DNA of 11,408 nucleotides from Gammaproteobacteria bacterium. GTDB lineage: Bacteria; Pseudomonadota; Gammaproteobacteria; JAURND01. The stretch covers positions 1-11,408 of the forward strand of contig JAURND010000136.1 of assembly GCA_030830425.1 (NCBI GenBank). The letters run 5' to 3'. The number at the start of each line of letters is the position of its first letter. Positions within the stretch are counted from its first letter, which is position 1. The notes under the pieces are model-generated. The model saw only the letters and a list, made by a program, of their open reading frames with translations. It was not told the DNA's origin and searched no databases. This document shows positions 6,960-11,408 of this stretch, piece by piece. A program made the translations under genes and the position numbers.

Positions 6960-7994
6960 TTAATAGTCCATCTTGCTCTTCAATAAGGCCGCTAATTTTT
7001 CTCCCAGAGCTGCCGGGTCATCAGCAGATCCATTGAGCTCTGCCCTAAAAAACAAAGGCTTTTCCGGATGTGCCATGAAGCTACGCATCTGCAGTTCACC
7101 GTTCACTTCAACCGCATATGCAGCAATCGGCAATTCGCACCCCCCATTTAATGCAGCGTTAAAATGACGTTCAGCGATAATACAGCGTCTAGTAGGGGTA
7201 TGGTCAAGTGCTGATAGTAATGAAGCCAATAAGGGCGAATGATCGATATGGCACTCCACACCAATGGCCCCTTGACCTACAGCCGGAATCCAGGTTTCTG
7301 GGGGTAAATAAGCATTGATGCGATGAGACCTCCCTAATCGATGTAATCCAGCAGCGGCTAAAATGATGGCGTCATATTCTCCATCGTCCAATTTTTTTAG
7401 GCGAGTCCCTACATTACCGCGCAACATTTTTACTGATAAATCAGGGCGAATTTCTTGGAGTAGAGAAGCGCGCCGACTGCTAGACGTGCCAATGACAGCA
7501 CCATGGGGTAAATCTGCCAATTGAGTCACGTTTATACCCATCATCTTTGAAATTCTGGGATTATGCTTGTCCCCATTCGCCATCCTCACATAGGTCTGGC
7601 TATGCTGCGATGTCTCATGTGGACGAGGCCTATCCGGCTTTTTCAAATCCGATGGGTATAGACTAGCGGAACAGATCAAGGCATCTCGTGGATCATCTCT
7701 TTGACAAACAGCACCCAGGATTAATCGGTTTGCTATTTTTACGGTCATATCTTTCACGGAATGGATAGCGATATCCACTTTTTTACAGAGGAGCGCAGAT
7801 TCCAGTTCTTTGGTAAACAACCCTTTCCCGCCAATCTTTGCCAGATTTTGATCTAGTTTTTTATCACCTTCTGTGACAAAAGAGACCAATTCTATATGCA
7901 TATTGGGGTAAATCGTCAGGATTTTTGCTTTGACAAATTCAGCCTGCCAAAGTGCAAGAGGGCTTTGGCGAGTGGCAATGCGTAGTATATCCAT
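6960..7994 (-). CDS. hemC: Hydroxymethylbilane synthase with an in-frame insertion
   Basis: A 344-residue cytoplasmic enzyme that joins four porphobilinogen units into hydroxymethylbilane for heme synthesis. LRIATRQSPLALWQA (4-18), KIGGKGLFTKELE (53-65) and HSVKDM (78-83, catalytic Asp82) are present. So are GTSSSRRASL (169-178), LRGNVGTRLKKLD (191-203) and AVGQGAIGVEC (238-248). NGGCELPIAAYA (283-294) carries Cys286, the dipyrromethane cofactor site. Normal enzymes have about 300-315 residues. The excess is residues about 112-154, between DPRDALICSAS and NVTQLADLPHGAVIGTSS, encoded exactly by a 128-base palindromic segment (7533-7660). Without it the protein would be about 301 residues with a normal surface loop. 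The reading frame stays open and every catalytic motif is intact. Upstream by 28 bases is a secreted-protein gene. hemD is not adjacent, unlike the common hemCD order. Confidence 0.95.
   Translation of the reverse strand: MDILRIATRQSPLALWQAEFVKAKILTIYPNMHIELVSFVTEGDKKLDQNLAKIGGKGLFTKELESALLCKKVDIAIHSVKDMTVKIANRLILGAVCQRDDPRDALICSASLYPSDLKKPDRPRPHETSQHSQTYVRMANGDKHNPRISKMMGINVTQLADLPHGAVIGTSSSRRASLLQEIRPDLSVKMLRGNVGTRLKKLDDGEYDAIILAAAGLHRLGRSHRINAYLPPETWIPAVGQGAIGVECHIDHSPLLASLLSALDHTPTRRCIIAERHFNAALNGGCELPIAAYAVEVNGELQMRSFMAHPEKPLFFRAELNGSADDPAALGEKLAALLKSKMDY
7533..7660 (-). repeat. Palindromic element inserted in frame in hemC
   Basis: TATACCCATC (7533-7542) and its perfect complement GATGGGTATA (7651-7660) bound the segment. 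The match continues inwards (CTTTGAAA versus TTTCAAAT), giving roughly 23-base inverted ends. A smaller imperfect hairpin lies in the centre (around 7583-7628, CCTCACAT...ATGTGGACGAGG). On the hemC strand it encodes residues 112-154, a Lys/Arg/His/Pro-rich hydrophilic peptide without stops. Only one copy is seen in this window. It is a candidate mobile palindromic element tolerated as a protein loop. Confidence 0.7.
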
Positions 7995-8759: not shown

Positions 8760-8871
8760 GCTGCTGAATTTAAGAAGGCAGCATGAATCCGGGTCTTCGT
8801 TAGGATGGTTCGCGAAGACCATTCATTTTGTTTCACGGCAAAGGTTCAAAAAGCAGCTTCTTAACGTGAAA
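8760..8871. repeat. Diverged modules 2 and 3
   Basis: AATTTAAGAAGGCAGCATG, GGTCTTCG (8792-8799) paired with CGAAGACC (8813-8820), and TTTTGTTTCAC parallel the copies after mutY and upstream of tkt. TTAAGAAG pairs with CTTCTTAA, and TTTCACG (8831-8837) pairs with CGTGAAA (8865-8871). The stems are kept with different bases. The 8608-9209 gap (602 bases) consists of a short unassigned leader (8608-8681) followed by this repeat cluster; I see no gene in it. Confidence 0.6.
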
Positions 8872-8874
8872 TGG

Positions 8875-9168
8875 GTATATACTGCTCGTATTTGAATGTG
8901 AGAATTTTAATGTATCTGCTTTTTTGATACGAGCAGTATCATCTATTTGAATTTAAGGGGGCAGCAGAACACTTCCCCCTTAAAAAACCCCCTGATTTTG
9001 TCTCACATTGAAGTGAGACGAGAATATACTGCTCGTACTTGAAAGTGAGAATCTTTATGTGTCTGCTTTTTTGATACGAGCAGTATCATCTATTTGAATT
9101 TAAGGGGGCAGCAGAACACTTCCCCCTTAAAAAACCCCCTGGTTTTGTCTCACTTTCAGGGAGAACGA
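8875..9168. repeat. 147-base tandem duplication of the full repeat
   Basis: 8875-9021 and 9022-9168 are two copies in direct tandem at a period of 147. They are nearly identical from TCTGCTTTTTTGATACGAG to CCCCCTG, and more diverged at both ends. Each copy has ATACTGCTCGTA paired with TACGAGCAGTAT (8879-8890 with 8928-8939; 9026-9037 with 9075-9086). Each also has TTTAAGGGGG paired with CCCCCTTAAA (8952-8961 with 8975-8984; 9099-9108 with 9122-9131). The first copy ends in a perfect GTCTCAC/GTGAGAC stem (9000-9006 with 9013-9019); the second carries the altered TTTCAGGGAGAACGAG tail also seen at the window start. Confidence 0.9.
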
Positions 9169-11210: not shown

Positions 11211-11229
11211 CTCCGAAATAATGTTTATA
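11211..11229 (-). promoter_or_regulatory. tkt Shine-Dalgarno and possible -10 inside a repeat arm
   Basis: On the minus strand, GGAG (11211-11214) is spaced six bases from the ATG at 11204. Upstream, TATAAA (11224-11229) would be a good -10 box, giving a leader of about a dozen bases. It forms part of the outer arm (TTATACCGC) of the module 1 repeat. The -35 position (ACCAGA at 17-base spacing) is poor, so the promoter is tentative; the ribosome-binding site is convincing. Confidence 0.45.
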
Positions 11230-11300
11230 CCGCTCTTACTTGAAGGTCTGGTTTTTAAAACAATAGGTTGAAAAAAACTATTGAGGTAAACGCGGTATAA
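11225..11300. repeat. Module 1 stem-loop upstream of tkt
   Basis: TTATACCGC (11225-11233) and GCGGTATAA (11292-11300) are perfect inverted arms, and the pairing extends to about 16 of 20 positions. Inside, AATAGGTT and AAACTATT form a second small hairpin. This is the best-preserved copy of module 1 in the window. Confidence 0.8.
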
Positions 11301-11408
11301 TCTGTTTATGTTAAAGGGGAAAAACATGGATCCCGACCTTCGTCGGGACGCTTTGCGCAATCCCTGGTTTTGTCTCAACCTGAAGGTAAAAAAGACAGTA
11401 CCTTCACG
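11301..11408. repeat. Modules 2 and 3 at the window end
   Basis: TCCCGAC-CTTC-GTCGGGA (11331-11348) is a perfect 7-bp hairpin, counterpart of the CCGGC-CTTC-GCCGG hairpin after mutY. CCCTGGTTTTGTCTCA follows as in the other copies. The last part differs: TGAAGGTA (11381-11388) pairs with TACCTTCA (11399-11406), reusing the TGAAGGT motif of module 1. The element probably continues beyond the window. Confidence 0.7.

Follow-up and report, generated by a model that had tools for sequence, protein, structure and literature searches.

The hydroxymethylbilane synthase gene (hemC) of a gammaproteobacterium contains a 128-bp palindromic segment that is read in frame, recurs in five other genes of the same genome and aligns end to end with ERIC elements of enterobacteria. 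We consider this segment very probably a non-autonomous, hairpin-forming mobile element of the ERIC/IRU/RU-1 kind that has become compatible with translation in this lineage. It lies on a stretch of 11,408 nucleotides (the window; contig C111 of an 864-kb assembly of 172 contigs), for which an earlier note, based on the letters of the DNA, had described a 128-base palindrome in frame in hemC. Its placement at 7533-7660 proved exact (Table 1). The nearest protein matches support the suggestion that the host is gammaproteobacterial; the nearest of the genomes compared have only the class in common with it, and the best 80 ParC matches have 61 to 66% identity, no close relative being found among named organisms.

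An insertion of 42 residues in HemC

The hemC frame is open throughout, and the protein with its insert scores 329 bits against TIGR00212 (cut-off 164). E. coli HemC aligns to it as two blocks, 2-108 and 155-337, and the PF01379 match is split into two stretches. An insertion-free allele exists in a sister HemC (P0002, source ENA), which has 311 aa, is 89% identical over aligned columns and lacks exactly 42 residues; where the sister reads ICSTGLNVTQ, the window HemC has ICSASL, the 42 residues and NVTQ. The insertion is therefore real, but it comprises 42 residues (113-154) rather than the approximately 43 (112-154) first proposed. These residues are not a conserved part of related HemC proteins. 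In a protein search with 8000 sequences scored and the best 120 listed, the other 118 listed relatives have 295 to 330 aa versus 344 in the window HemC, and residues 113-152 are crossed by no listed row of other genomes (32 of the 35 other genomes matched HemC). The G+C content is 0.469 in the element versus 0.457 in hemC.

Table 1 Features of the window and host genes of the element in the source genome
Feature	Contig	Position in window	Strand	Basis
hemC, hydroxymethylbilane synthase, 344 aa, host gene	C111	6960..7994	-	TIGR00212 329 bits; PF01379 in two stretches plus PF03900
Palindromic element of ERIC type (128 bp with the TA of each end), in the hemC frame	C111	7533..7660	-	exactly 7660-7533 matched by positions 1-127 of the ERIC model
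Net inserted 126 nt, codons 113-154 (YPSDLKK...KMMGI)	C111	7533..7658	-	absent from sister HemC P0002
5' terminal inverted repeat TATACCCATC (coding strand), first TA included	C111	7651..7660	-	covaries between copies with opposite end
3' terminal inverted repeat GATGGGTATA, last TA included (putative TA target duplication)	C111	7533..7542	-	suggested by net 126-nt insertion
Apical hairpin GCAGCATAG-CCAGAC-CTATGTGA	C111	7586..7608	-	motif common to intergenic hairpins of own genome
Host gene dsbD	C158			NCBIfam NF001419 above cut-off
Host gene rlmD	C49			NCBIfam NF009639 above cut-off
Host gene, 'probable DNA repair protein'				NCBIfam TIGR03623 above cut-off
Host gene ileS				NCBIfam TIGR00392 above cut-off
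Host gene dnaE	C155			NCBIfam TIGR00594 above cut-off
Remnant (half element) in recG				partial gene, below NCBIfam cut-offs
Remnant (piece) in rlmJ				Pfam PF04378

We modelled HemC with AlphaFold from 58 sequences (mean pLDDT 88.7; 260 of 344 residues at 90 or above). The model has target-normalised TM scores of 0.91 and 0.93 against the E. coli HemC structures 1ah5 and 1pda, and residues 118-142, which sit between strands 104-108 and 167-170, have pLDDT below 50. The insert is probably a disordered loop in this model, and the tolerance by the protein that had been proposed is apparent to that extent, the loop being predicted to be both disordered and tolerated. At this site another HemC (P0008) has a short insertion of a different, repeat-like sequence (KRAVHERAVHE), and the HemC loop may thus tolerate additions. 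Since a natural insertion-free HemC with 89% identity exists, the cost or gain of the loop is directly measurable. Elsewhere in the window, a tandem duplication at 8861-9154 (147-nt unit, 91% identical) consists of intergenic repeats that are found again in part near 1-64, 2498-2632, and 11223-11385.

Copies, fold and reading frames in the source genome

That the segment is a repeated element is confirmed by five more full-length copies in the same genome, which bring the total to six (hemC, dsbD, rlmD, the TIGR03623 gene, ileS, and dnaE). All are 128 bp, in frame and genic, and each is crossed by an open frame of 365 codons or more; since this genome is 64% complete, intergenic copies may be missing from the count. 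A DNA search of the genome returned three near full-length matches (C158, C49, and C5) with E-values of 1.2e-26 to 5.0e-23, which exclude chance for the hemC element, together with three short pieces. Covariance model R1 adds C13 (3e-16) and, weakly, C155 (0.03), and a search with the peptide alignment also recovers C155 (0.007). A search with model R2, which was constructed from the six full copies, sets these apart with E-values no higher than 2.6e-19. As the dnaE copy on C155 is a member of R2, its score there is not independent evidence; independent support comes from the R1 and peptide scores and from its 128 bp, which match the subfamily A copies described below without gaps. Further, E. 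coli DnaE lacks exactly query residues 488-529, again 42 residues. An assembly artefact is ruled out by the presence of copies on six contigs and by the insertion-free sister allele. Other weak matches were set aside, those in purH on C135 (E 0.006) and acnA on C82 (E 0.012) as chance or undecided and two DNA matches on C73 and C108 as likely chance. A 23-nt antisense match at the 3' end of lgt is a possible further piece.

Counting the recG half and the rlmJ piece, the orientation of the element relative to the gene is identical in all eight cases. Solved homologues without the inserted stretch are available for hemC, rlmD, ileS, dnaE, recG, and rlmJ; those of dsbD cover only the two flanks of the insert, and no solved homologue matched the TIGR03623 gene. 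The insert is within PF01379 in HemC and within PF00133 (residues 27-718) in IleRS. In DsbD it follows the main DsbD_N stretch, of which there is a second, and since solved DsbD domains align on both sides, it is probably inside this domain. The RlmD insert falls within the equivalog model, ahead of the methyltransferase stretch, and RlmD has 506 aa versus 407 to 465 aa in the other 119 listed relatives. The DnaE insert is at the edge of HHH_6, and that of the TIGR03623 protein is ahead of a PD-(D/E)XK domain. Both termini are TA in four of the six full copies, while the ileS copy lacks the final TA and the dnaE copy lacks both. In dsbD (C158, L161) and rlmD (C49, L160), extra partial copies of the 3' end are directly upstream of the full copy, in frame; some Proteus ERICs are likewise in tandem, with 124-bp spacing.

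The element with two flanking bases on each side (7531-7662) folds at -48.1 kcal/mol (z = -5.2), and none of 200 shuffled sequences was as low. The consensus hairpin has 39 pairs, with 97.4% of cells paired in four copies, and its arms covary among the copies. Both sides have changed in 9 of the 39 pairs in four copies (shuffled 4.1, 0 of 500 as good; slid controls 0 to 3) and in 17 of 39 in six copies (shuffled 6.3, 0 of 500 as good; slid controls 2 to 5), although part of the excess over the slid controls is expected, since the pairing structure was derived from these same copies. Template switching during replication can correct imperfect palindromes, and the arms could be complementary for this reason alone, without selection or mobility. 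This would explain the covariation without any function, and would fit the dnaE copy, in which the inner arms are quite different yet complementary again. We nevertheless consider it unlikely as the whole explanation, because it accounts neither for copies in six unrelated genes nor for the ERIC homology, and because several internal loops hold the same place across copies; it may act in addition. Under the mobile element reading, complementary arms would be kept by a role of the hairpin in movement or in RNA, or by template-switch correction, and either selection or the mechanics of insertion may be the reason.

Five copies (hemC, dsbD, rlmD, the TIGR03623 gene, and dnaE; subfamily A) share one frame, which is free of stops. 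A second subfamily (ileS and recG) is read in another frame, in which the ileS copy is stop-free; the recG half encodes the ileS-type peptide (56% identity, E 9e-5). A change from TTTGAA to TTTCAA removes a TGA in the ileS frame, and the opposite arm matches it (CTTGAAA for TTTCAAA). The reverse strand has an open frame in four of the five A copies, which is used by none of the eight copies and remnants, and the hydrophilic character of the read-strand peptide may account for the orientation bias.

The frame-A peptide is present in four proteins, the other three being 47 to 51% identical to the HemC copy, as might be expected of a functional module copied into several proteins for the sake of protein function. 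Among the four closest A copies, variable columns number 16, 13, and 18 of 42 by codon position, with third positions not in excess (permutation p 0.23), and dN/dS ranges from 0.37 to 0.99 between pairs, values that have low power at n = 4. There is thus little sign of selection on the peptide itself, which is not supported by the sequences at this power. The ileS and recG genes moreover encode a different peptide from the same element, and we regard a selected module as improbable. Removal or bypass of the insert at the RNA or protein level, such that the enzyme never contains it, might be imagined for so stable a hairpin in a coding region, but is very hard to reconcile with a used frame that is open in all six full copies while other frames of the same strand contain stops, a pattern expected only if the element is translated.

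Kinship with ERIC and hairpins with a common tip

To compare the element with ERIC, we used a model (R3) of nine ERICs, seven from Proteus mirabilis, one from an E. coli K-12 F' plasmid and one from a plant-associated Klebsiella plasmid. R3 is weighted towards Proteus mirabilis, the origin of 7 of its 9 rows, and its E-values are rough owing to a short calibration. It was run on 35 sources, namely the window, six other copy or piece loci, 19 foreign hairpin loci and, apart from C32, the own intergenic hairpin loci (nine of ten). Model positions 1-127 align to the whole hemC element (29.3 bits, E 8.8e-5) and, over the same positions, to the copies in dsbD (39.1 bits, E 2.4e-7), ileS (38.5 bits, E 3.5e-7), rlmD (32.1 bits, E 1.6e-5), and the TIGR03623 gene (22.2 bits, E 0.006). 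Two foreign hairpins (0.005 and 0.011) score like the last of these. Within the 35 sources, R3 did not match the dnaE copy, the recG half or the own intergenic hairpins, and in 99 kb of control sequence (30 loci) it had no match with an E-value of 10 or below. In the reciprocal search, R2 matched the Klebsiella ERIC (5.5e-5), one Proteus ERIC (1.3e-4), and two more from Proteus (0.02 and 0.04), and among the nine ERICs did not match that of E. coli K-12 or the remaining Proteus copies. It also scores several foreign hairpins with the same tip (best 5.6e-9) above any ERIC and so does not by itself single out ERIC. R2 points to a broader set of hairpins with a common tip, ERIC among them, while it is R3 that ties the hemC element to ERIC. 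On this sequence evidence, the element is a coding-compatible variant of ERIC and not the independent kind that the earlier note had envisaged; in-frame ERICs were already published in 2007 (PMC2759123).

The source genome has 13 occurrences of the apical motif GCAGCATA-N2..12-TATGTGA and none backwards; four of the 13 are element copies and nine are other hairpins. Eight of the nine have no open frame of 90 codons across the motif; the coding context of the remaining one (C32) cannot be judged, as it lies where a contig ends. A longer form of the motif is present in 23 of 369 gammaproteobacterial genomes, the source included, and never backwards among those listed. One own intergenic family (C10, C15, C66, C73, C136 and others; L169, L170, L175, L176, L179) has the ends GTAACTATTCA / TGAATGGTTAC and the tip of the hemC element. 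Target duplications of 8 bp can be seen by eye in this family, TATAAGTG on C136 and GAATGAAT on C73, and an imperfect one on C66. A second intergenic type (L173 and L178, on C33 and C133) has GGTCTGTTTACAAT / ATTGTAAACAGACC at C33 and the same apical tip. The 23 genomes (for example, L181-L200) contain long hairpins with quite different arms and the constant tip GCGCAGCATA-N-TATGTGAGC; a single genome has as many as 12, and the reversed pattern does not occur.

At E 1e-5, R2 has matches in 13 of the 369 genomes, the source included, which give 19 foreign places. No open frame of 100 codons crosses the element in 15 of these, and the frames of 119 to 181 codons at two more (L222 and L229) look spurious. 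The remaining two (L217 and L224) have longer open frames near a gene start, and none of the 19 is clearly mid-gene. At L217 and L224, ERIC-like hairpins are in an open frame just before genes that by eye resemble rnhB and a nucleotidyltransferase, and may be cases of N-terminal extension in lineages other than this one. With these two counted as genic, six of six own copies versus two of 19 foreign ones are genic (Fisher p 1.6e-4, for a foreign set chosen by score and not at random).

Searches for further relatives in named GTDB contigs, IMG/VR, plasmids, and phages, by peptide or DNA with alignment A3 or the hemC copy, gave no confirmed relative. In the 369 genomes, A3 found its own genome and five weak matches (0.008 to 3.4e-5), judged to be chance after inspection of the loci; at the best of them (G215), the frame differs from that of the gene there. 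The rlmD element region found only itself in the protein database, from two candidates, a search of poor sensitivity since it did not list the other copies of its own genome. Rfam at gathering scores had nothing in the window or at eight loci.

Insertion into genes and comparison with known systems

We propose that the element entered hemC at a TA, which was duplicated in the process, most likely through a transposase acting in trans at TA; for Photorhabdus, ERIC-like MITEs have been linked to IS630-type ends (PMC6267812), and an enzyme of that type may be suggested by analogy. The TA duplication would follow from the 126-nt gain at the protein level together with the TA ends. With a duplicated TA, 128 bp add 126 nt (42 codons), whereas 127 bp would add 125 nt, and the 42-residue differences in both HemC and DnaE agree with a gain of 126 nt per insertion. 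Translation compatibility would thus depend on a length of 128 instead of 127 bp and on one stop-free frame of the coding strand. A copy that points in the direction of the gene and enters in a suitable frame would add a hydrophilic loop and survive, such that survival in genes would hinge on a gain in multiples of three, an open frame and a site that tolerates a loop. The second subfamily is read in another frame, with its stop-removing change matched in the opposite arm. The label 'selfish' for such an element is plausible from the sequence pattern.

A bolder reading, which we offer tentatively, is that a length change of one base, together with a purge of stops from one strand and compensating changes in the opposite arm, has reshaped a mobile hairpin so that its main habitat is now inside core proteins (HemC, IleRS, DnaE, RlmD, and DsbD) and even their conserved domains, while families of the same genome with the same tip are intergenic. 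The data suggest a route by which a mobile element could become harmless to genes, namely a length in threes and the absence of stops on one strand, and that ERIC-type elements can be tolerated inside conserved enzymes.

The habit of in-frame insertion is known from Rickettsia and Wolbachia and is now seen in a gammaproteobacterial element. The palindromic elements of those genera (RPE and WPE) are hairpins, about 150 bp in RPE and of several families, that occur in frame in core genes (PMC10969869, PMC2229807, PMC4224334), and the RPE trait of in-frame insertion in conserved protein genes recurs here in hemC, dsbD, rlmD, ileS, dnaE, and the TIGR03623 gene. Their hosts are Alphaproteobacteria, and the likeness drawn here is one of published behaviour; a horizontally transferred RPE or WPE is most improbable, given that the hemC element instead matches the ERIC model end to end. 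QMITE1 of Coxiella burnetii is also a gammaproteobacterial MITE that overlaps genes, but it has 300 to 400 bp and, in named functional genes, is described as overlapping C-termini (PMC5896051). MITEPlu5 of Photorhabdus luminescens is an ERIC-related hairpin with a TA target and CCC near its terminus (TATACCC here); it differs in its 123 bp in most complete copies, its 552 complete copies and its non-coding nature according to its authors (PMC6267812).

The closest system is ERIC itself, the properties of which are listed, with those of RPE, in a review (PMC2229807). Both are full-length imperfect hairpins of nearly the same size (127 versus 128 bp), with TATAC...GTATA ends that include TA and the same layout of arms and apical hairpin, and TA ends and TA duplications are given for ERIC in PMC2759123. 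They differ in length, as all six copies here are 128 bp and the printed ERIC consensus, the K-12 copy and Proteus copy 1 are 127 bp (given by the match for these two copies; the other R3 rows were cut to 127 by hand). They also differ in coding capacity, since on the strand read here each of the nine ERICs, like the printed consensus, is interrupted by stops in every one of the three frames, whereas the copies here are stop-free in the used frame. A third difference is one of distribution and not of sequence, in that ERIC is mostly intergenic and all six full copies here are genic. Delihas (2007; PMC2759123) described a 42-codon ORF in ERIC (RU-1) of gammaproteobacteria, which extends two conserved genes in frame at their ends and is present in hypothetical ORFs; that paper places these cases at C-termini or in small ORFs, with none within a conserved domain, and considers that such insertions would appear to disrupt function. 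Among the matches listed from openly readable full-text literature, no report of ERIC inside conserved domains was found. The six mid-gene, in-frame copies in one genome, those in HemC and IleRS inside a Pfam domain, run counter to that statement. In-frame ERICs were therefore known before, and what appears to be new, judging from the sequences, is a 128-bp, stop-free subfamily that is present mid-gene and, in HemC and IleRS, inside the domains of the enzymes.
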